Shown here: in pieces, positions 3,943-22,761 of the stretch
Layout of the letters: each line of letters starts with the position of its first letter
Numbering within the stretch: the first letter of the stretch is position 1
Origin: Prosthecobacter sp.
Lineage (GTDB): Bacteria > Verrucomicrobiota > Verrucomicrobiia > Verrucomicrobiales > Verrucomicrobiaceae
Assembly: GCA_021733925.1 (NCBI GenBank)
Contig: JAIPJY010000029.1
Coordinates: forward strand, 19,560 to 83,559
DNA: 64,000 nt
Direction of reading: 5' to 3'
Position numbers and translations under genes: made by a program
The notes under the pieces: generated by a model
What the model was told of the DNA's origin: nothing
Databases searched by the model: none
Seen by the model: the letters and a program-made list of their open reading frames with translations, nothing else

Positions 3943-4776
3943 TTAGAACAACAGCGGTTGATCTTCGTTCTTCGGAGCAGTTTTGCCACGTCGTTTGCGT
4001 GGTGTGGGCTCTTCAACAGGAGCATCCACAGTGACCTCTTCGGGGATAGCGATAGGAGCAGGCACCGGGACCTCTTCCAGGATCGCTTCAGGAGTTTCCA
4101 CAGTGATCTCCCCAGGGGGAGCCTCCGGAGCCTCTACCGCAACCTCCTCAGAGGGCGGCTCAGGTGCAGCCTCAGTGACCTCTGGAGACGGTGTCTCAGG
4201 CTCATCCACCACGCCCAGCGCTTCAGTGACAGGCTCAGCGGGCATGGAGACATCTTCCGCGACCTCTGGCTCGATTATTGCCGCCTCTTCCTCACTGATA
4301 ACCAGATAAGAATCAGCTATAATTACTTCCTCAACATGATGGAATGGGACGGTGACTTCCTCATTTTTTGGAGTTTTAGCAGCCTTTTCAGCTAACGGCT
4401 TTTTCGTCACCTTTTCATTCACGGCAGCCTTGCGCAAACGGTGCCTGGCCACCCGTTTGGCAGTCAGGGCTTTGTTCTGCGCCACGGGGCTGTTGTGGCG
4501 TTTGAAGTTACGAAAGGAGAGTTTCCCATCCGTTTCAATGAGCCAGCCAGTCTTCTCCAAAGCCAGCGCGAAACCTTTGCGCCCCACAATCTTGTCGATG
4601 AACTCCTTGGTAACTCCCAGATCGTTAGGATCGATCCGGTTCAGTTCCGCCCACGACCACAGGCGCACTAGTTTTCCCACGACTGCGTCATCATCCATCC
4701 GCAACTGGGTGGCCAGGCTGCAAATCTCCGGCTTGTCCGGCGTGCAGATTTCGATCTTGATCCAAGGGCGTCTCAT
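3943..4776 (-). CDS. Replication-initiator-like N-terminal winged helix protein with Pro/Glu-rich repetitive tail
   Basis: The first 110 residues (PWIKIEICTPDKPEICSLA, then DDDAVVGKLVRLWSWAE, GVTKEFIDKIVG, GFALALEKTGWL, FKRHNS) resemble the winged-helix N-terminus found in phage and plasmid replication or replisome-organiser proteins. A basic linker follows (KRVARHRLRK). The last 130 residues are low complexity, rich in Pro, Glu, Val and Ala, with a loose repeat of the form PEEVTV(D/E)AP, and end in a basic patch plus LLF. No phage genes adjoin it, so it may be a domesticated or relic mobile-element gene. The family assignment is from recall of the pattern; function is inferred only. Confidence 0.55.
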   Translation of the reverse strand: MRRPWIKIEICTPDKPEICSLATQLRMDDDAVVGKLVRLWSWAELNRIDPNDLGVTKEFIDKIVGRKGFALALEKTGWLIETDGKLSFRNFKRHNSPVAQNKALTAKRVARHRLRKAAVNEKVTKKPLAEKAAKTPKNEEVTVPFHHVEEVIIADSYLVISEEEAAIIEPEVAEDVSMPAEPVTEALGVVDEPETPSPEVTEAAPEPPSEEVAVEAPEAPPGEITVETPEAILEEVPVPAPIAIPEEVTVDAPVEEPTPRKRRGKTAPKNEDQPLLF

Positions 4777-4988
4777 GGGGCATGAGATTGCAGGACAGGT
4801 AAAGCCAGGTCAAGGAAACCTTATTAACGTTACATTGGCGCATTGTGAACAACTCGGCTTGGGAAGTGGTATTGCCACCAAAAATGGCAACGTTGGAAAC
4901 TTTCCACCGTTGCCGATGTCTCAGAGGGCATGCGATCATCCCTGCAAGGTGGAGCGACCCACCCTGCAGAGACCGAAGGCGATCAGGC
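4777..4988. other. Intergenic region with two short inverted repeats
   Basis: It lies between the start of the replication-initiator-like gene and the end of the VOC gene. It contains TTGCCA-ccaaaaa-TGGCAA (about 4873-4891) and, right after it, GGAAA/TTTCC within an imperfect larger palindrome. These could be the terminator of the VOC operon, which reads in from the right, or operator sites for the leftward gene. No small gene is supported. Confidence 0.4.
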
Positions 4989-5447
4989 CTACCTGGCGCC
5001 CGCACTCATGAATGCCTGGGCGCGCTTCATGAGCTCTTCCGGCGGTACGTCTTCGAGATGCTGGCTGAAGCTCCAGCGATAGCCGAAGGGATCGCGGATC
5101 ATCGCCGTGCGTTTGCCCCAGAACTGATCTCGGGATGGAGTCAGCGGGGAACCGCCTGCCGCGAGGGCGCGCTCAAACGCTTTGTCGCAGTCCTCGACTT
5201 GGATCGTAAACCCGCAAGGGGCCAGCCCGCCCTCGGGGATGGCCAAGGCGTGCGACATCGGAGCCTCATCGGAGATGTAGATGTGTGTGGTGCCGATCTT
5301 GAACTCGGCATGCGGCACGATGCCAGGGGCTGGAGAAAAGCGGTACAGTTCTACTGCACCCAGGGCCCGGGTGTAGAAATCGAGCGCATCGGCAGCGCTT
5401 TTGCAGGTGAGGGAGAAGGAGACGGTGGGTTCGTTGGTTTGGCTCAT
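4989..5447 (-). CDS. VOC (glyoxalase/bleomycin-resistance) superfamily protein, PhnB-like
   Basis: A compact 152-aa protein. Features typical of VOC and PhnB-type proteins are SFSLTCKSAADALDFYTRAL near the N-terminus, then HAEFKIGTTHIYISDE, the swap FTIQVEDCDKAFERALAAGG, and the end motif FWGKRTAMIRDPFGYRWSF. These pair as two beta-alpha-beta-beta-beta units. The start is set at ATG 5447 (MSQTNEPTV); the in-frame extension upstream has no domain. It is third in a leftward group after the AlkZ-related gene and the WYL regulator, with a 108-bp gap. The substrate is unknown, and homologues of this type are often annotated only as glyoxalase-like. Confidence 0.8.
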   Translation of the reverse strand: MSQTNEPTVSFSLTCKSAADALDFYTRALGAVELYRFSPAPGIVPHAEFKIGTTHIYISDEAPMSHALAIPEGGLAPCGFTIQVEDCDKAFERALAAGGSPLTPSRDQFWGKRTAMIRDPFGYRWSFSQHLEDVPPEELMKRAQAFMSAGAR

Positions 5448-12027: not shown

Positions 12028-12104
<77 letters not shown>

Positions 12105-13448: not shown

Positions 13449-16232
13449 TCACGACATGCTGATGAGGTTGTGGGAGCGCAACCGGTCGAGGACGAGTTGC
13501 AGTTTGGTTTGGAGGTCGGCGATCTGAGCTTCGAGTTGGGCTACATCCACGGTGTCGCTCCCACTCAGGCTGGCAGTGCCGTTCACGTTGTCGATTGGGG
13601 CAAGCGGTTGAAGGCTTCCCCGAATATCCACGGCCTCTGAGATGGATGTCGTGTAACCATAAGGACCTAGGTAGCTACCTTCATTGCCCGGAGTGCTGCC
13701 ACCGCCACCAACCCAACTTTGGAGTTGGAGCACATGACGCTCGCCATCGAGGACGATAGCAAGTTGAGGGCTCCAACCATTGGCACCATCAGCGCCGTTG
13801 CTGCCCCCGTAGCCTCCGTCCGCGCCTGGCGGCCCGTCACTGCCCCTCACATAGAACGGACCAAAGCTCTGGCCGGTAGATGTGTAGAAAGTGAGATTGG
13901 AACCATCGAAGTCGATGTTGGTGATGGGAGTGGCATCAGCGCCGTTGCTGCCGTCACTGCCAGAAGCTCCGCGAAGATCGACGGCTTCGTATAGGTAGGG
14001 GGTGAAACCATCTGCTCCGAGGTAGTAGCCTTCACTGCCGGGTGTGCTGCCACTGCCGCCTGTCCAGTTTTGCAGTTGCAGAACCCGACGTTCGCCATCG
14101 CTGATGGCGATGAACAACGGACTCCACCCATTGGCACCATCCGCACCGGTGCTGCCCCCGTTGCCGCCGTCTGCGCCCGGTGCCCCATCACTGCCGCGCT
14201 CACCACGAATGTCAGTAGCGTCGTAGAGATTGGGAGTGAAGCCGCTGGCTCCGAGATAGTATCCTTCATAGCCTGGGGTGCTGCCATTACCGCCGGTCCA
14301 GCTTTGCAGTTGCAGCACGCGGCGTTCGCCATCGCTGATGGCGGTGAAAAGCGGGCTCCATCCATTGTTGCCGTTGGCTCCATCACTTCCGCTGCTGCCA
14401 TTGCTGCCGTCACTGCCTCGGACATAAAACGGGCCGAAGCTTTGTCCGGTGGATGTCTGAATGGTAAGATTGGCACCATCGAAGTTGATGCTGGTAATGG
14501 GGGTGGCGTCGTTGCCGGGTGCGCCGGTGCTTCCGCTGCTGCCATCGTTTCCACGCACATAAAACGGACCAAAGCTCTGCCCCGTTGAAGTCTGAATGGT
14601 GAGATGAGTGCCGTCGAAGCTGATGCTTGTGATGGGAGTGGCATCCACACCGTTGGTGCCGGGGGTTCCTGCTGAGCCATCGCTACCGCGAGGACCACGA
14701 ACATCCACGGCGTCATAGAGATTGGGAGTCAGGCCGCTGGCTCCGAGGTAGTAGCCCTCGCTGCCTGGTGTGCTGCCGCTGCCGCCGGTCCAGTTTTGCA
14801 ATTGCAGCACGCGCCGCTCGCCATCGCTGATGATCGCAAACACGGGAGTCCAACCGTTGGTCCCATTGATGCCGTCGATGCCGTTGATCCCATTCGTACC
14901 GTTGCCGCCATCGTTTCCTTTGACCATGAATGGGCCAAAGCTCTGCCCGGTGGAAGTTTGAATGGTGAGGTTGGTGCCATCGAAGCTGATGCTGGTGATG
15001 GGAGTGACATCCGCTCCTGCCGCGCCGGTGCTGCCCGATGGTCCCTGCATGCCGCGCAGATCGAGCGCTTCTGCAGCCGTGGCGACCCAGCCAGAGACTC
15101 CGAGATAGGAACCAATTCCCTGAGGAGGGGAGCCACTGCCGCCAGTCCAGCCGGTGAGTTGCAACACCCGCCGCTCTCCGTCACTGAACAAAGCGAGTGC
15201 GGGAGTCCAGCCGTGGTTGCCATCAAGTCCATTGATTCCGTTCAATCCGTTTGCCCCCGGACCACCGGCTGCTCCCACTGCACCGCGTAGATCGACCGCA
15301 TCGCTGATGCTTGTCACCAAGCCAGATGATCCGAGATAGTTGCCGACGCCTTGCGGTGCATCACCAGTGCCGCCAGTCCATGCAGTGAGCTGCAGCACAC
15401 GCCGTTCGCCCTCGTTGATCAACGTGAACATCGGGCTCCAACCATTGCTGCCGGACTGACCGTTGGTGCCATTGAGTCCATTGGACCCGGATGTGCCGCG
15501 CACATCCACCGCGTCGCCAATGTTTGCCACCAAACCCGCATCGCCCAAGTAGTAACCGCTGCCTTGCGGTTCATCGCCAGTGCCACCAACCCAAGACGTG
15601 AGTTGCAGCAAGCGGCGTTCGCCATCGCTCACAATTCCAAAGAGCGGACTCCAGCCGTTGCCCGATGCGCCAGCCACAGCTGCGAGCGTGAGCACACGAG
15701 TTTCATGGTTCGGTGTGAACGTGAGGTTGGTGCCGGCGGCCAGTGAGGCGAGGAGCCACTGCCAAGATTGCTGTGCGTCCGTGGCGGCACCTGGCGTGCC
15801 TTCCTGTCCTCGGATCACGTCGTTGATGACGGAGACGTTGAACGTTTGGCTCGACTGCCAGCCATGCGTGTCGTCACCGTTGCGCAACGAGAACTCACCG
15901 ATCAAATCCACACGATCGGGAGCGTTGGGCGAGGCGAACAGCGCTGTCAGCGCTGCCGTGTTGAACGAGGGTTCTGCTGTGTAGGTCTTGGCGTTCGCGT
16001 TCTCGGTGAACGTGGCGGTGTAAACCAGTGGTTCGCCGTCGTAGTGGCCCTTGGGCTTGAGTGCGAAGCGGATGGCATGACCGGGTTGCAGCAGCACGGG
16101 CATCGCGTCCGCATAGAACACCAATTCAAGGCTGGCGGCATCGCCGCGTTTGAACTCCAGCGTGATGAGCCGCGTGCTCGATTTGGGTGTGCGGACGATG
16201 TAACCTTGTGTGAGATCCCAGTGTAGGCGCAT
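13449..16232 (-). CDS. Tail fibre with modular repeats and collagen-like linkers
   Basis: This 927-aa protein should form the receptor-binding fibre. Its N-terminal ~170 aa (RLHWDLTQGYIVRTPKSSTR) is a non-repetitive attachment domain. There follow seven copies of a ~60-residue unit with core NGWSPLFxxxSDGERRVLQL, then WTGGxG, YLG and DAVDxRG. Four copies of a second unit with core TPITSISFDGTNLTIQTSTG are followed by QSFGPFYVRG. Units are joined by Gly-X-Y collagen-like stretches such as GSDGSNGSSGSDGANG. The C-terminus is a short trimeric coiled-coil candidate (VAQLEAQIADLQTKLQLVLD). Repeats are highly similar at DNA level, so copy number may vary. It lies last in the late operon, just before the integrase, convergent with it. 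Confidence 0.85.
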   Translation of the reverse strand: MRLHWDLTQGYIVRTPKSSTRLITLEFKRGDAASLELVFYADAMPVLLQPGHAIRFALKPKGHYDGEPLVYTATFTENANAKTYTAEPSFNTAALTALFASPNAPDRVDLIGEFSLRNGDDTHGWQSSQTFNVSVINDVIRGQEGTPGAATDAQQSWQWLLASLAAGTNLTFTPNHETRVLTLAAVAGASGNGWSPLFGIVSDGERRLLQLTSWVGGTGDEPQGSGYYLGDAGLVANIGDAVDVRGTSGSNGLNGTNGQSGSNGWSPMFTLINEGERRVLQLTAWTGGTGDAPQGVGNYLGSSGLVTSISDAVDLRGAVGAAGGPGANGLNGINGLDGNHGWTPALALFSDGERRVLQLTGWTGGSGSPPQGIGSYLGVSGWVATAAEALDLRGMQGPSGSTGAAGADVTPITSISFDGTNLTIQTSTGQSFGPFMVKGNDGGNGTNGINGIDGINGTNGWTPVFAIISDGERRVLQLQNWTGGSGSTPGSEGYYLGASGLTPNLYDAVDVRGPRGSDGSAGTPGTNGVDATPITSISFDGTHLTIQTSTGQSFGPFYVRGNDGSSGSTGAPGNDATPITSINFDGANLTIQTSTGQSFGPFYVRGSDGSNGSSGSDGANGNNGWSPLFTAISDGERRVLQLQSWTGGNGSTPGYEGYYLGASGFTPNLYDATDIRGERGSDGAPGADGGNGGSTGADGANGWSPLFIAISDGERRVLQLQNWTGGSGSTPGSEGYYLGADGFTPYLYEAVDLRGASGSDGSNGADATPITNIDFDGSNLTFYTSTGQSFGPFYVRGSDGPPGADGGYGGSNGADGANGWSPQLAIVLDGERHVLQLQSWVGGGGSTPGNEGSYLGPYGYTTSISEAVDIRGSLQPLAPIDNVNGTASLSGSDTVDVAQLEAQIADLQTKLQLVLDRLRSHNLISMS

Positions 16233-18618: not shown

Positions 18619-19446
18619 TTAACGTGGGAGCACCGCCCACTGAAACTCGTAGGTGTAGGTAGTGGCCCAGATGGAACTGCCTGGGATGTTGTCCGCGTCG
18701 ATGCCGGCAAGCTTCCAGCCCCAGGGCCAGTTGAACACGATTCTCTCCATCGAGTCCTGCCAGTAGAAGTTCTGGATGGGCGGCGGATCAGGCGGGGTGA
18801 GCATGCCGGGAATGGCAATGGTGTTGGGGGGCGTGATCGAGACGTAGCTGTCCTGCACGACGATTTTGGGCAGGCTGAACTGCGAGGGCAGTGCCTCGTT
18901 GGGCCAGCCGCCGGGTTGATTCAAATACACCGGCTCAGAGGGACTGATGATGTTCTCATTGACGCTGATGCGGCGCTTGTAACCGCGTGCGCCAAGCAAT
19001 CCACGATATGAAGCAGTGACGTGGTAGAACCCGGCTTCCAGCAGTTCCTCGCTGCGATCCACGCAGACCATGTTGGGATGAGCTGCAGGAGTGCTGCCCA
19101 TGGCGATGAGGCCTTGCCCCAGCATGATCCACTCCTCGCTGCCTTCATCAAAGGTGTCGGTGGATTGGCGGAACACGCTCTTCACGCGGCGATTGGGCTT
19201 GTCGCCCAGCACGCCGAGGCATTGCAGGCGATGGATGTAGCGCCCCGGATAATCCTCCTCGATCTCGACCTCCTGAATGACCAGACCACTGTAACCTGGA
19301 GGCGCATCGCCCGGAGTGAACGCGGCAAGACTTGGGTTGAACCATTCCAGCGTGCCCGAATCGAGTCCGTCTCTGCGCCGCGTGAAGCGTGCGCCGGGAG
19401 CGGCGAAGGTGGTCTCGCCAAATTCGATGACCGCTGGCACACTCAT
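18619..19446 (-). CDS. Phage minor tail protein, unknown
   Basis: A 275-aa protein (MSVPAVIEFGETTFAAPGAR) with beta-rich composition, including EVEIEEDYPGRYIHRLQCLG and DPPPIQNFYWQDSMERIVFN. It overlaps the tape-measure gene by 4 bp. By gene order (tape measure, then distal tail) it could be a distal-tail or Dit-like protein, but no residue signature shows this. Confidence 0.6.
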   Translation of the reverse strand: MSVPAVIEFGETTFAAPGARFTRRRDGLDSGTLEWFNPSLAAFTPGDAPPGYSGLVIQEVEIEEDYPGRYIHRLQCLGVLGDKPNRRVKSVFRQSTDTFDEGSEEWIMLGQGLIAMGSTPAAHPNMVCVDRSEELLEAGFYHVTASYRGLLGARGYKRRISVNENIISPSEPVYLNQPGGWPNEALPSQFSLPKIVVQDSYVSITPPNTIAIPGMLTPPDPPPIQNFYWQDSMERIVFNWPWGWKLAGIDADNIPGSSIWATTYTYEFQWAVLPR

Positions 19447-21236
19447 ACGGCGGCGAAGTCGCCGATGCCCTCCCGAATTTCAGTGAGCAGTTGCAGGATT
19501 TGATTGCCCTCGGTGAGGCGCACGGTTCCTGCACCGCCCTCCTTGTTGCCATTGGCGGCAGCGCGTGCGCGCAGCAGTTCACCCGCTCGCTCATGAGCGC
19601 TTTTGCGCGGCGTGCCCTTAAAACCTCGCATGTCACCGCCACTGTTGGAGACGCTGTATTTGTAGCCACCGCGTGCATCGCGCTCCTGCAGCGCATCGAA
19701 ATACGCCAGGCCAGTGAAGCTGGGCAGGTTGTCAGGGCTTTTGTAGCCGATGATGCGTTTGCGTCCGCCTTTGGTCGTGTCACCGCGTTTGGCAATCTTG
19801 TCCTCCAGATCGGCCTTGGTGCGGGCGATCCGCAGGGCTTGCTCTTCTGAGAGACCGGTTTCATCCGCAATGCGCTTGGCCTCGGCCGCGATGCGTGCCT
19901 GTCGCTCCAGCGCATCCGCTTCCTTGTTGCGACCACTGGCCCGTTTTTGCAAAATCTCCAAGCTGGTGGCCAGATCGGTTTTGGCCGTGTCCTGTGTGGC
20001 TTTCTTTTCCTGCTGGGCCTGCAACTGGCGCTGTTCTTCTTCGCTGATCTGTTTTTCCAAGGACAGCACTTCACTCAGAGCCCGCTCGCGCTCGAGTTCC
20101 AGCTTGGCCACTTTCTCCAGATCTTCGTTCGCTCCGCCAGACATGTAGGCGGCGTCGCGCCCGGCTTTGAGCTTGGCGTCAAGGTCAGACACCTTGCCCT
20201 TGGCGAGTTCGAGCTGCTCGGTGGGCTGCAGATTGATTTTAAGGTTGGATTCACGCGCGGCATCGAGCTGCGTTTTGAGATCGGCCATGCGCGAAGCCCA
20301 GCGTTCGTTTTCCTTTGCCGCATCCTCAGCAGCTTTCGCGGCGGCCTTCTGCGCCTGTTCCACCTTGCGCGCCCACTCGGCGGTTTCGCGTGCCTTCTGC
20401 CGCTGTACTTCCTGCGCTTGAGCCGCTTCCTCAGCGGCGATCTTGGTCTCAGCCATCGCCCGAGAAGCTTGCTCCATGCGCTCGGAGAAGCTGCCTTCAA
20501 ACTGGCCGGGGGTCATCGCCAAGGCGAACACAGCCGCCACGTCGGCAGCGCCGAGCGCCAGTTCAGCAGCCCACGATTTTGCGATGAGTGCGCCTTTGTC
20601 GAGGCGGTCGTTGAACTCAGCCAAGCGCTTGACCTGTTCGTCACTGAGCACCGGTACGTCGGCGAGTTCCTGCAAAGCATCACGTCCAGCCATCAACACC
20701 GGGATCAACTCCGCGCCTTTGCGGCCCATGAGATCGAACACTTCAGTAAATCCTTCACCACGATCACGCGCAGCGATGAACGCATCGGAGAGTGCAAAGA
20801 TTTGATCTTCCACTGACATGGTGCGCAGTTGCGAGGCGCTGATGCCAAGCTTCTGCAAGGCACCCGCCACCTTGTCGCTTTCCTCCGCTTGAGAGAGCGC
20901 GAGCGTGAGCTTGCCCACGCCTTTGACCAGGGTTTCCAGATCGGTGCCGGACATTTTGGCCACACCGCCAAGACGCTGTAAACTCTCCACGCTGGTGTCG
21001 AGCTGGATGGAGAGGTCGTTAAGACGGTCGAACCCGTCGATGACGGATTTGATTCCAGCGAGCGAGCCGATGGCGGCAGTGAGCTGACCGAAGCCGCCCA
21101 CCACATCCGCGCTCATCGCCCGTCCCAACGTGCTTTTGGCACGGGTGGCAAAGCCCGCGAGGATGCCTTGCGCCTTTGCGGCTCCCGCCTGCAAATCGCT
21201 GTTATCCCAGCCAAGTTCGACTTTCGGTGCTGCCAT
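19443..21236 (-). CDS. Tail tape-measure protein
   Basis: The N-terminal region (MAAPKVELGWDNSDLQAGAA) opens a mainly alpha-helical 597-aa protein. It has a hydrophobic patch (AAIGSLAGIKSVIDGFDRLN) and a long Ala/Glu/Lys-rich coiled coil from about residue 250 to 500 (EEAAQAQEVQRQKARETAEW). The helix FDRLNDLSIQLDTSVESLQRL is typical of phage tape measures. The position after the G/GT chaperone pair confirms the role: it sets tail length and is injected. It is short for a long-tailed phage, so the tail is likely modest. Start ATG 21236 is preferred over ATG 21248 (MLPAMAAPK). Confidence 0.82.
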   Translation of the reverse strand: MAAPKVELGWDNSDLQAGAAKAQGILAGFATRAKSTLGRAMSADVVGGFGQLTAAIGSLAGIKSVIDGFDRLNDLSIQLDTSVESLQRLGGVAKMSGTDLETLVKGVGKLTLALSQAEESDKVAGALQKLGISASQLRTMSVEDQIFALSDAFIAARDRGEGFTEVFDLMGRKGAELIPVLMAGRDALQELADVPVLSDEQVKRLAEFNDRLDKGALIAKSWAAELALGAADVAAVFALAMTPGQFEGSFSERMEQASRAMAETKIAAEEAAQAQEVQRQKARETAEWARKVEQAQKAAAKAAEDAAKENERWASRMADLKTQLDAARESNLKINLQPTEQLELAKGKVSDLDAKLKAGRDAAYMSGGANEDLEKVAKLELERERALSEVLSLEKQISEEEQRQLQAQQEKKATQDTAKTDLATSLEILQKRASGRNKEADALERQARIAAEAKRIADETGLSEEQALRIARTKADLEDKIAKRGDTTKGGRKRIIGYKSPDNLPSFTGLAYFDALQERDARGGYKYSVSNSGGDMRGFKGTPRKSAHERAGELLRARAAANGNKEGGAGTVRLTEGNQILQLLTEIREGIGDFAAV

Positions 21237-21254
21237 CGCAGGCAGCACGAGATG

Positions 21255-22009
21255 TCAATGAAACCGGTGTCTGACCCGCTCCCACCAGCGCCCCGTCTCC
21301 GACAGCCTGCGATCCGGCCACATCATCGCCTCGCCCTCCATCAAGCGGAAAGCATGCACATAGGCACGGCCTCGCGAGAGCGGCAGATGCCAGCGAATGT
21401 AGTCTTCGGTCCAGCCCGTGCCGTGCGCAATCACCGCGATGTATTGCGCCTCCGCCACGGGCAGGGCTAGTTTCCCGAAGCGTGCTCCTTGTCGGATGGC
21501 TCTGGCACGGCCTGGTTGATGCCGGCTTCATTGTAGATTTGGAGGGCGAGATTGACCGCCTCCACATGCTTGCTGCGTGGCACGTTCACATCCCCCCAGG
21601 CTTCGATGGCTTCCAAAAACAGCGCGAGATCGCCACGGAGTGCGCGCCAATCTGGTGGTTCGTGACTGCACAACCACAGAATCCTGATCGCATCACTCAA
21701 AAACGTAGTGAGTTGTTCGAGTGTGCGACTCAGAGGCAGAGAACCATCGGCGGCGCGCAGCTTGTAGAACAGTGCTTCACGTCCTGAACTGTAGCCATGC
21801 AGAGCGATAGGTTCCCAGGTCTTGAGCGCCGCATTCCAAATGGGCCAGGTGTGTTCGGCTTCAAACGCCGTATCCCGCTCTTGCTGGGCCAGCTCCAGAT
21901 CTTTGGTCGGAACCGCGTCCCGGTGAACGTGCTTGCCGCGTTTGGGAATGGGTTGGTCCGTGCCGAGATTGAGAGGAGTGGTGGCTGCTGGAATGGGTGG
22001 AGTCTTCAT
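21255..22009 (-). CDS. Tail assembly chaperone G-GT fusion made by -1 frameshift
   Basis: The upstream frame (22009 to 21470) is the G-like part; at 21476-21470 ribosomes can shift to the -1 frame and continue to 21255. That downstream frame encodes VAEAQYIAVIAHGTGWTED and ends MMWPDRRLSETGRWWERVRH. The fused product would be about 251 aa. Lambda makes gpGT in the same way, at GGGAAAG, to chaperone the tape measure. Here the same logic appears: slippery GGGAAAC, then the G stop, then an open -1 frame ending just upstream of the tape-measure gene. The downstream part alone would need GTG 21458 and has no good SD. Confidence 0.8.
21414..21476 (-). promoter_or_regulatory. Programmed -1 ribosomal frameshift signal
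   Basis: On the minus strand the codons TCG GGA AAC TAG give slippery heptamer G GGA AAC (21476-21470). A 7-nt spacer (TAGCCCT) precedes an outer stem GCCCGTG (21462-21456) pairing with CACGGGC (21420-21414). Nested within it is a second perfect stem GCGCAAT (21449-21443) pairing with ATTGCGC (21431-21425). Spacer length and heptamer type fit known -1 frameshift signals. Confidence 0.85.
21467..22009 (-). CDS. Tail assembly chaperone G-like protein (unshifted product)
   Basis: A 180-aa product starting MKTPPIPAATTPLNLGTDQP. It ends HASGN at the TAG complementary to 21467-21469. It is Leu/Glu-rich and helical in the middle (LSRTLEQLTTFLSDAIRILW). It overlaps the stop of the upstream gene by 4 bp (22006-22009). 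Position between the tail-tube-region genes and the tape measure is the usual place of gene G in siphoviruses. Sequence alone would not identify it; the frameshift context makes the call. Confidence 0.78.
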   Translation of the reverse strand: MKTPPIPAATTPLNLGTDQPIPKRGKHVHRDAVPTKDLELAQQERDTAFEAEHTWPIWNAALKTWEPIALHGYSSGREALFYKLRAADGSLPLSRTLEQLTTFLSDAIRILWLCSHEPPDWRALRGDLALFLEAIEAWGDVNVPRSKHVEAVNLALQIYNEAGINQAVPEPSDKEHASGN

Positions 22010-22761
22010 GGGATGCGAAAATGGCGTTGCACACGGTCGAGCATGTCATCGCTGGCATCCTCGGCGACGAAGGCGGAGCGGATCGAGCGTGGCTTGCGCA
22101 GCAGCACGCGGCGGGCGGTGGAGTGCAGGTGCGTCGTGATTTGTGCATGCACGCAGCGGGCGTTGTAGGCGCTCACCAGCGGATGCTGCGGATCATCGCG
22201 TTCGAGCGAGCCATCACGAAGCTGCTGCGTGAGTGCCTGCGCATCATGTCGCACCAATTCACCGTTGGATGCGAGAACGGAGTGGCCGAAACGCGGCAGT
22301 CGAAAGCTTCCACGCTCATGTTCGATCACAGGAATGCCAATCACGCCTAACGCGGCGACGAGCGCTGCATCATTCGTTTCGATGAGTTCATCCGCTTCAC
22401 GCAGGCTGGGCAGTTCATCGCCTTCGATGTAGATGGTGGCGTGATTGCCAACTGTGGCAGCGAGTCGAAGGTGCCGCCCGTTGCGCAACGAGCTTTCGAG
22501 CATCACCGCATTGTGGCTGGCGCGCAGGCCACACAGGAATGGATGAAGCGGGTCTGCCCGCTCCAGTTCGCCGCTCTGCCACTGCTGGATGAGCTGGTCG
22601 GTGTGCAGCGCATTCCATAGCGATTGCAGGCCAAGGTAGAACGTGGTGATTTCGTCGCCGCTGCGCTCATCGAACACAATGTCCGTGCGCACCGGCATAC
22701 CGAGCGCACCGAGACAGGCGGCAAGGTTCACATTGTGAGTGGGCCACCAGCCTTCGATCAT
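22006..22761 (-). CDS. Phage tail-region protein with internal duplication, unknown
   Basis: A 251-aa protein with two related halves. Compare LIQQWQSGELERADPLHPFL (first half) with LTQQLRDGSLERDDPQHPLV (second half), both following ALGMPV or IGIPV segments. A tandem internal duplication is therefore visible. No family recognised. It overlaps its neighbours by 4 bp on both sides (22009 and 22758), so it is part of the late operon between the tail tube and chaperone genes. It might contact the tail tube. Confidence 0.6.
   Translation of the reverse strand: MIEGWWPTHNVNLAACLGALGMPVRTDIVFDERSGDEITTFYLGLQSLWNALHTDQLIQQWQSGELERADPLHPFLCGLRASHNAVMLESSLRNGRHLRLAATVGNHATIYIEGDELPSLREADELIETNDAALVAALGVIGIPVIEHERGSFRLPRFGHSVLASNGELVRHDAQALTQQLRDGSLERDDPQHPLVSAYNARCVHAQITTHLHSTARRVLLRKPRSIRSAFVAEDASDDMLDRVQRHFRIP

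Follow-up and report, generated by a model that had tools for sequence, protein, structure and literature searches.

Two reading frames, G and T, overlap on the minus strand of a Prosthecobacter sp. prophage, just upstream of the tape-measure gene and inside the tail module. The question that this locus raises is whether T is translated by ribosomes that shift frame at the end of G and, if so, which parts of the mRNA make up the signal. In lambda, the heptamer of the gpG/gpGT pair is GGGAAAG. An earlier note, made from the sequence of the window alone (the window being the whole stretch of 64,000 nucleotides analysed here, from contig JAIPJY010000029.1), had proposed a similar mechanism for GGGAAAC followed by a nested double stem. 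The site is real, conserved and lambda-like in its anatomy, and on the sequence evidence it is very probably a -1 programmed ribosomal frameshift signal of a lambda-type prophage.

Anatomy of the G/T junction

The features of the site are as follows (window coordinates, all on the minus strand).

21467..22009, minus strand: G, candidate zero-frame tail-assembly chaperone, 180 amino acids, stop codon included in the coordinates (from the open reading frame list)
21470..21476, minus strand: slippery heptamer G_GGA_AAC (GGGAAAC), read directly, with UAG immediately 3'
21463..21469, minus strand: spacer UAGCCCU, 7 nt, containing the G stop codon UAG (21467-21469)
21456..21462, minus strand: 5' arm of the outer stem, GCCCGUG (fold; wobble-wobble covariation)
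21443..21449, minus strand: 5' arm of the inner stem, GCGCAAU (fold; 76.9% of cells paired in 13 sequences)
21425..21431, minus strand: 3' arm of the inner stem, AUUGCGC (fold; 76.9% of cells paired in 13 sequences)
21414..21420, minus strand: 3' arm of the outer stem, CACGGGC (fold; covariation)
21255..21470, minus strand: T, -1 frame, 71 codons (21470-21258) plus the stop codon TGA (21255-21257), predicted to be reached only via the frameshift, as a G-T product
19443..21248, minus strand: tape-measure gene, 601 amino acids (PHROG tape-measure families, best of these 1.8e-18)

The 3' end of G reads TCG GGA AAC TAG and T opens with CTA at 21470, so that an in-phase X_XXY_YYZ heptamer sits within the overlap of the zero frame and the -1 frame. 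The earlier description of this region was exact to the base for GGA AAC TAG preceded by G, giving GGGAAAC, and equally exact in its coordinates for the 7-nt spacer and the outer and inner stems, which are nested and each a perfect 7 bp; the open -1 frame of 71 codons ending shortly before the tape-measure gene was also confirmed (start of the tape-measure open reading frame at 21248). GGGAAAC occurs nine times in the window against 6.9 copies expected, an ordinary frequency that makes the heptamer alone uninformative, and relatives were therefore sought by protein. The significance of the site derives mainly from its position and its conservation in these relatives.

The 75-nt fold at the site had an energy of -35.3 kcal/mol (z -2.8), equalled by 2 of 200 dinucleotide shuffles, and when 168 overlapping 70-nt segments were folded across G, T and the beginning of the tape-measure gene, the three of lowest energy started at the heptamer or no more than 10 nt from it. 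Against synonymous shuffles, the whole fold at the site (locus L003 in our set) was reached by 5 of 200. The outer 7-bp stem taken by itself was not exceptional in this single sequence (p 0.31, synonymous shuffles).

The surrounding prophage is of the lambda type, with matches for terminase, portal (PF05136), protease and head protein. Neither Pfam nor PHROG gave a match for the window's G or T, and 21 G homologues compared with named families gave stray weak matches, none of them convincing. An AlphaFold2 model of G (mean pLDDT 84) found no Foldseek match at an E-value of 0.001 or better, while the top 13 viral rows included three G/GT or tail-chaperone entries (E 0.02-0.2). The likeness of G and T to the lambda pair would be one of function, with no sequence homology to named tail-chaperone families being detectable.

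Conservation of the heptamer among relatives

Three kinds of source supplied homologues of T: genomes of the Verrucomicrobiales, further genome records, and viral contigs. Matches to G were present in 9 of 96 genomes (own genome counted), while two profile searches with T found matches in 45 and 58 of 386 genomes of the order, and a T profile matched 4 of 288 genomes of the phylum, again counting the own genome. A T search of genome contigs gave 15 loci, and viral contigs yielded 2 loci by G, 7 by the tape measure and 20 by T. Fifteen further viral-contig stretches came from a 17-mer around the site, a scan that is biased towards the signal; 14 of these contain T, the exception being L056. Collapsing loci that shared the same 90 nt of T left 103 distinct ones (68 + 35), ten weak T matches (E about 7e-4 to 0.01) being left out of the set. 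A few relatives come from records labelled otherwise than Verrucomicrobiales, e.g. L075 (Betaproteobacteria) and L081 (Chthoniobacterales). As the count is based on T, it excludes loci that keep G without T, e.g. L008, where a G homologue of ~70% identity (L008:1501-2094) has no T match at the locus and continues at its 3' end into unrelated sequence that lacks GGGAAAC.

An in-phase XXXYYYZ heptamer was found near the G/T junction in 94 of the 103 distinct T loci, the scan covering -36 to +36 around the start of T for 68 loci and -75 to +20 for 35. Its position relative to the T start was exactly -6, as in the window, in 56 loci, -15 in 31 and elsewhere from -9 to -36 in the other seven. Leaving aside the four loci known through the 17-mer only (L054, L059, L063 and L066), the count was 90/99. 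As a background, such heptamers occurred at 17 of 7833 codons elsewhere in G. Heptamers ending in AAAC comprised GGGAAAC (33 loci), CCCAAAC (12) and AAAAAAC (5), and the others were AAAAAAG (34), GGGAAAG (5), AAAAAAA (3), GGGAAAA (1) and CCCTTTA (1). The shortest overlap of the open frames, just 13 nt in L011, L089 and L094, also contains the heptamer. Homologous two-frame loci extend down to ~30% protein identity.

The earlier note had held that homologues keeping the two frames while lacking both heptamer and stem would speak against its reading. Nine of the 103 T loci lacked a canonical heptamer: six frame fusions, described below, together with L010, L032 and L100, for which the statement refers to the scanned stretch. 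L010 combines the two frames with a strong stem, no G was detected in L032, and L100 carries a run of nine A farther upstream.

Structure and covariation of the downstream hairpin

In the 50 AAAC loci, the 69 nt downstream of the heptamer folded with a mean z of -2.81 relative to synonymous-codon shuffles, which preserve the T protein and codon use, and 43/50 loci fell below -1.5. Seven of the 50 lay above this value, of which at least three (L081, L117 and L120) form another uninterrupted stem instead, 10 to 13 bp long, as do L075, L105 and L121. The best contiguous stem, sought from 0 to 45 nt after the heptamer (an earlier search had been limited to starts at 5-9 nt), began 5-7 nt after it in 44/50 AAAC loci, at exactly 7 nt in 33 of them, and in 2/43 loci of the other heptamer class. 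The end of the 3' arm in AAAC loci lay near +42 (7 loci), at +48 to +50 (10) or at +54 to +62 (32), with L011 as the exception, and in the search with stem starts at 5-9 nt its position was lineage-specific. The distance between stem and heptamer is thus nearly fixed, while the partner arm moves between lineages.

In the outer stem of the window the P-V codons base-pair with the T-G codons, and four of the seven pairs are therefore fixed by the amino acids, the other three pairing wobble position with wobble position. Among 24 representatives (below 85% identity), these three pairs were Watson-Crick in 42/72 cases, a number that none of 20000 shuffles reached (shuffled mean 24.4); the test took 38 of the 51 AAAC/GGGAAAA loci, i.e. 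those with P and TG correctly placed. We also aligned 13 sequences in the stem register of the window, picked after the wobble test and excluding near-duplicates of the window group and L105, whose stem is imperfect. In this alignment 97.8% of the cells of the outer helix were paired, one position showing five different types of pair. Two-sided cell changes, counted over both helices together, numbered 15 against 5.1 in shuffles (0/500 reaching 15). Pairs in which both partners had changed numbered 4 in these 13 sequences, which does not exceed the shuffles (mean 3.0, with 83/500 reaching 4).

Inner hairpins differ between lineages, and the inner stem as drawn in the window was rejected as a conserved element (76.9% of cells paired in the 13 sequences). 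The nested double stem of the earlier note therefore stands in its outer part, which is backed by covariation, while the inner part as drawn is lineage-specific. The comparison of homologous phages that the same note had proposed as a check thus returned a conserved heptamer (94/103) and a covarying outer stem.

Heptamer type and hairpin

Loci with AAAAAAG, GGGAAAG or AAAAAAA (n = 42) had a mean z of +0.38, with 1/42 below -1.5, and in-frame fusions (n = 6) a mean of +0.42, with none below -1.5; the single GGGAAAA locus had a z of -2.3. The Mann-Whitney p for this contrast disregards relatedness. A tree-corrected regression retained the effect of heptamer on stem (-2.0 +/- 0.44, t -4.5, n 99) at a lambda of 0.85, the best of 21 values, the fit at lambda = 1 being useless, as tips that are almost identical bring the matrix close to singularity. 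The majority of AAAAAAG loci cluster in a single clade; the outgroup nearest to it, L075 (CCCAAAC), bears a strong stem. A hairpin normally accompanies AAAC heptamers but is exceptional with AAG/AAAA heptamers and in fusions; it is not universal. In bacteria generally, a stimulatory structure downstream of the heptamer is common without being required.

Among the alternatives, the one that survives best concerns the hairpin rather than the shift: the structure could serve another purpose (mRNA stability, termination) or arise from protein and codon constraints, without stimulating frameshifting. Conservation of P, V, T and G does dictate four of the seven outer pairs, and the outer stem of the window did not stand out among its own synonymous shuffles (the p of 0.31 above); however, the three free wobble-wobble pairs covary, the hairpin tracks AAAC heptamers while being exceptional with AAG/AAAA heptamers and in fusions, and its distance from the heptamer is nearly constant although the partner arm moves. 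We consider this alternative unlikely, and regard the hairpin as a putative stimulator of the shift.

Sharma et al. (PMC4066793) report CCCAAAG, GGGAAAG and AAAAAAG as the most efficient heptamers in E. coli with stimulators, and low efficiency for GGGAAAC and AAAAAAC. A reading that we hold slightly more probable than its negation is that phages of one bacterial order keep their tail-chaperone pair in three interchangeable ways. The first would be a weak XXXAAAC heptamer rescued by a hairpin anchored ~7 nt downstream, its 3' arm having shifted between lineages; the second, a strong heptamer, mostly AAAAAAG, without a hairpin; and the third, a fusion of the frames with no shift, in one case beside a second, separate G. 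If experiments agree, evolution would here have titrated the strength of the slippery site against that of the stimulator, and the shift itself would be replaceable.

A second lysine tRNA (anticodon CUU) was considered as the cause of the preference for AAC over AAG and rejected. The host genome (G000) has both tRNA-Lys CUU and UUU, and its Lys-CUU gene, used as a query, matched tRNA-like sequence in 54/54 genomes; in the best 30 matches listed, 28 anticodons were read, all of them CUU and from hosts of both heptamer classes, the loci read being the best matches by construction. Since tRNA-Lys CUU occurs with either class, it does not account for which heptamer is used. The queuosine enzyme Tgt is present in G000, so its absence is not the reason there. 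Contig C48 of the same genome (30000-33400) carries a cluster of nine tRNAs (Glu, Leu, Leu, Gln, Met, Thr, Arg, Asn and Asp) with mostly low tRNA model scores for this genome, perhaps belonging to a phage or mobile element.

Shine-Dalgarno (SD)-like stretches within 25 nt upstream of the heptamer were found in 21/50 AAAC loci and 12/31 AAAAAAG loci, compared with 23/250 and 25/150 control windows inside G respectively, an excess that could be attributable to the codon make-up of the G tail.

In-frame G-T fusions

Six loci (L014, L122, L132, L158, L160 and L162) have G and T in one frame, with neither heptamer nor stem. The G profile detected G in the fused open reading frame in five of them, L158 having no detectable G part. 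The fusions fall at about five places in the tree among shift-bearing relatives, with moderate support. The junction of the L014 fusion reads SGN-TAVPI, and this locus has an additional, separate G just upstream: L012 and L014 (G033:C3, about 767.8-769.0 kb) are arranged as a tandem G followed by the in-frame G-T fusion, a duplication that could be the source of both products without a frameshift. The fusions suggest that both products can be obtained without shifting frame.

Proposed mechanism and alternatives

In the proposed mechanism, most ribosomes would terminate at the UAG that ends G and release the 180-aa protein, while a minority would pause at the hairpin 7 nt downstream with tRNAs on GGA (P site) and AAC (A site). 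A tandem -1 slip from GGA AAC to GGG AAA would then let reading continue with CUA GCC CUG, and the product would be a 251-residue G-T protein containing ...SGN-LALPV..., with EHASGNLALPVAEAQYIAVIAHGTGWTEDYIR as the predicted tryptic peptide across the junction. The earlier note had given this junction as GK-L; the A-site tRNA would be selected by AAC before the tandem slip, so that the main predicted junction is GN-L, with Asn and not Lys (compare SGN-TAVPI in the L014 fusion). Other timings of the slip have been proposed (PMC5009743). By analogy with lambda, the tape-measure protein would be coated by G, the tail-tube protein would be recruited by the T domain of G-T, and neither G nor G-T would be part of the virion. 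We infer that slippage occurs and that both proteins act as chaperones. In the open-access literature searched we found no report of a frameshift product for this G/T family, nothing on Verrucomicrobia prophage tail chaperones or on covariation at tail-chaperone slippery sites and, judging by titles, nothing on tail frameshifts of Akkermansia prophages.

Three further explanations would do without a ribosomal shift. T could be translated independently by re-initiation, e.g. at the GTG at 21456-21458, 8 nt past the G stop codon, the overlap then being ordinary translational coupling. An ATG, GTG or TTG does lie within the first 13 T codons in 39/50 AAAC-type loci, but an SD-like stretch precedes such a codon in just 8/50, the commonest start position is common to 20/50, and 11/50, including L013, have none. 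Re-initiation, which also leaves unexplained the phased heptamer and the absence of heptamer and stem in the fusions, appears very improbable. Equally to be weighed is transcriptional slippage, in which RNA polymerase would slip and produce a mixed mRNA pool. This would be possible in lineages with A runs (AAAAAAG, AAAAAAA and the nine A of L100 and L044), which mostly have no downstream stem; however, GGGAAAC and CCCAAAC contain no run longer than three, and a covarying RNA hairpin at near-fixed spacing suits ribosome pausing, so that we give this explanation hardly any credence. Finally, a pseudogene or an assembly error splitting one gene, though compatible with a single sequence and with the origin of many relatives from draft metagenome assemblies, is refuted for practical purposes by the recurrence of two frames with a heptamer in 94/103 distinct loci, with protein identities as low as ~30%, and by the same arrangement in an induced phage of Akkermansia.

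The -1 ribosomal shift of the lambda gpG/gpGT type proposed in the earlier note is supported. Its gene order, heptamer, spacing and stem were each confirmed, and they are kept among relatives, compensatory changes included.

Comparison with known systems

The window shares with lambda gpG/gpGT (PMC5009743) the gene order, a -1 extension near the 3' end of G, an XXXYYYZ heptamer and the neighbouring tape measure. The two lambda proteins, G and G-T, are made at a molar ratio of roughly 30:1, and it is G-T that connects the tape measure to the tail tube (PMC5009743). Unlike lambda, the window uses GGGAAAC, with a stop codon straight after the heptamer and a covarying hairpin at 7 nt, and neither its G nor its T could be matched by sequence to a known family. 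For gp18/gp19 of Burkholderia phage KL1 a tail-chaperone frameshift has been predicted at a GGGAAAC that immediately precedes a stop codon (PMC3483164), and Caulobacter phages have a predicted tail-chaperone shift at GGGAAAC (Colossus) or AAAAAAC (phiCbK) (PMC3556154). The hosts of KL1 and of phiCbK/Colossus differ from those of the window family, and the accounts of these phages mention no comparison of stems. A similar mixture of heptamers within one gene pair (GGGAAAC, AAAAAAC and GGGAAAG) is seen in the haloarchaeal viruses HCTV-1, -2 and -5 (PMC5009743), although these have archaeal hosts and comprise three cases, for which the account of them gives no link to a stem. The IS1/IS3-family transposases (PMC4066793), as here, use low-efficiency AAAAAAC and GGGAAAC beside heptamers ending in AAG or AAA, but in transposase and not tail genes, and the account of them sets no heptamers against stems. 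Given the precedents in KL1, Caulobacter and haloarchaeal viruses, the window site belongs to a known type and, the mechanism being established for this gene pair, is by itself ordinary.

Three observations extend the earlier note: the association of the hairpin with the heptamer type, the nearly fixed stem start with a moving partner, and the fusion of the frames in several lineages. The value lies in the comparison: with some 100 homologues of the site in a single phage gene family, among which heptamer and hairpin have changed and frames have fused, compensation between slippery-site strength and stimulator becomes directly testable in bacteria.

The comparison also points to an unannotated predicted G-T fusion in at least one public record, that of Akkermansia phage Moulinsart (ON453896.1), which was left out of the 103 loci. 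Its T is 97.5% identical to that of L045 and its junction, an AAAAAAC site, reads AAAAAACTAG; the record annotates the pair as two separate hypothetical proteins, with no frameshift. Moulinsart is an inducible prophage of Akkermansia muciniphila YL44; the OMM12 consortium yielded 13 induced prophages, of which it is listed as one (PMC10197239).

Neighbouring genes

In several close relatives the gap between T and the tape-measure gene holds foreign genes; the window has no insert there. The gap contains an HNH endonuclease gene (PF01844) in L069 (2285-3070), and in L016 (4003-4994) a DUF6036 nucleotidyltransferase next to a 140-aa protein encoded on the other strand. An inserted gene without a Pfam match in L017 (about 4160-5000) was found again in L067 after position 2198. 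L070 likewise has an HNH gene after T (2391-2882), on a contig with no tape-measure match. This gap looks like an insertion hotspot.

Just before G, the window encodes a 251-aa protein (22006-22761) with no PHROG match and none above the Pfam cut-off. A tRNA-Pro (GGG) at 12028-12104 adjoins the prophage tail genes and is a possible attachment site. A 927-aa collagen-like protein (13449-16232), without a Pfam match, contains many Gly-X-Y stretches and repeated blocks, e.g. ISDGERRVLQL, and is probably a tail fibre.
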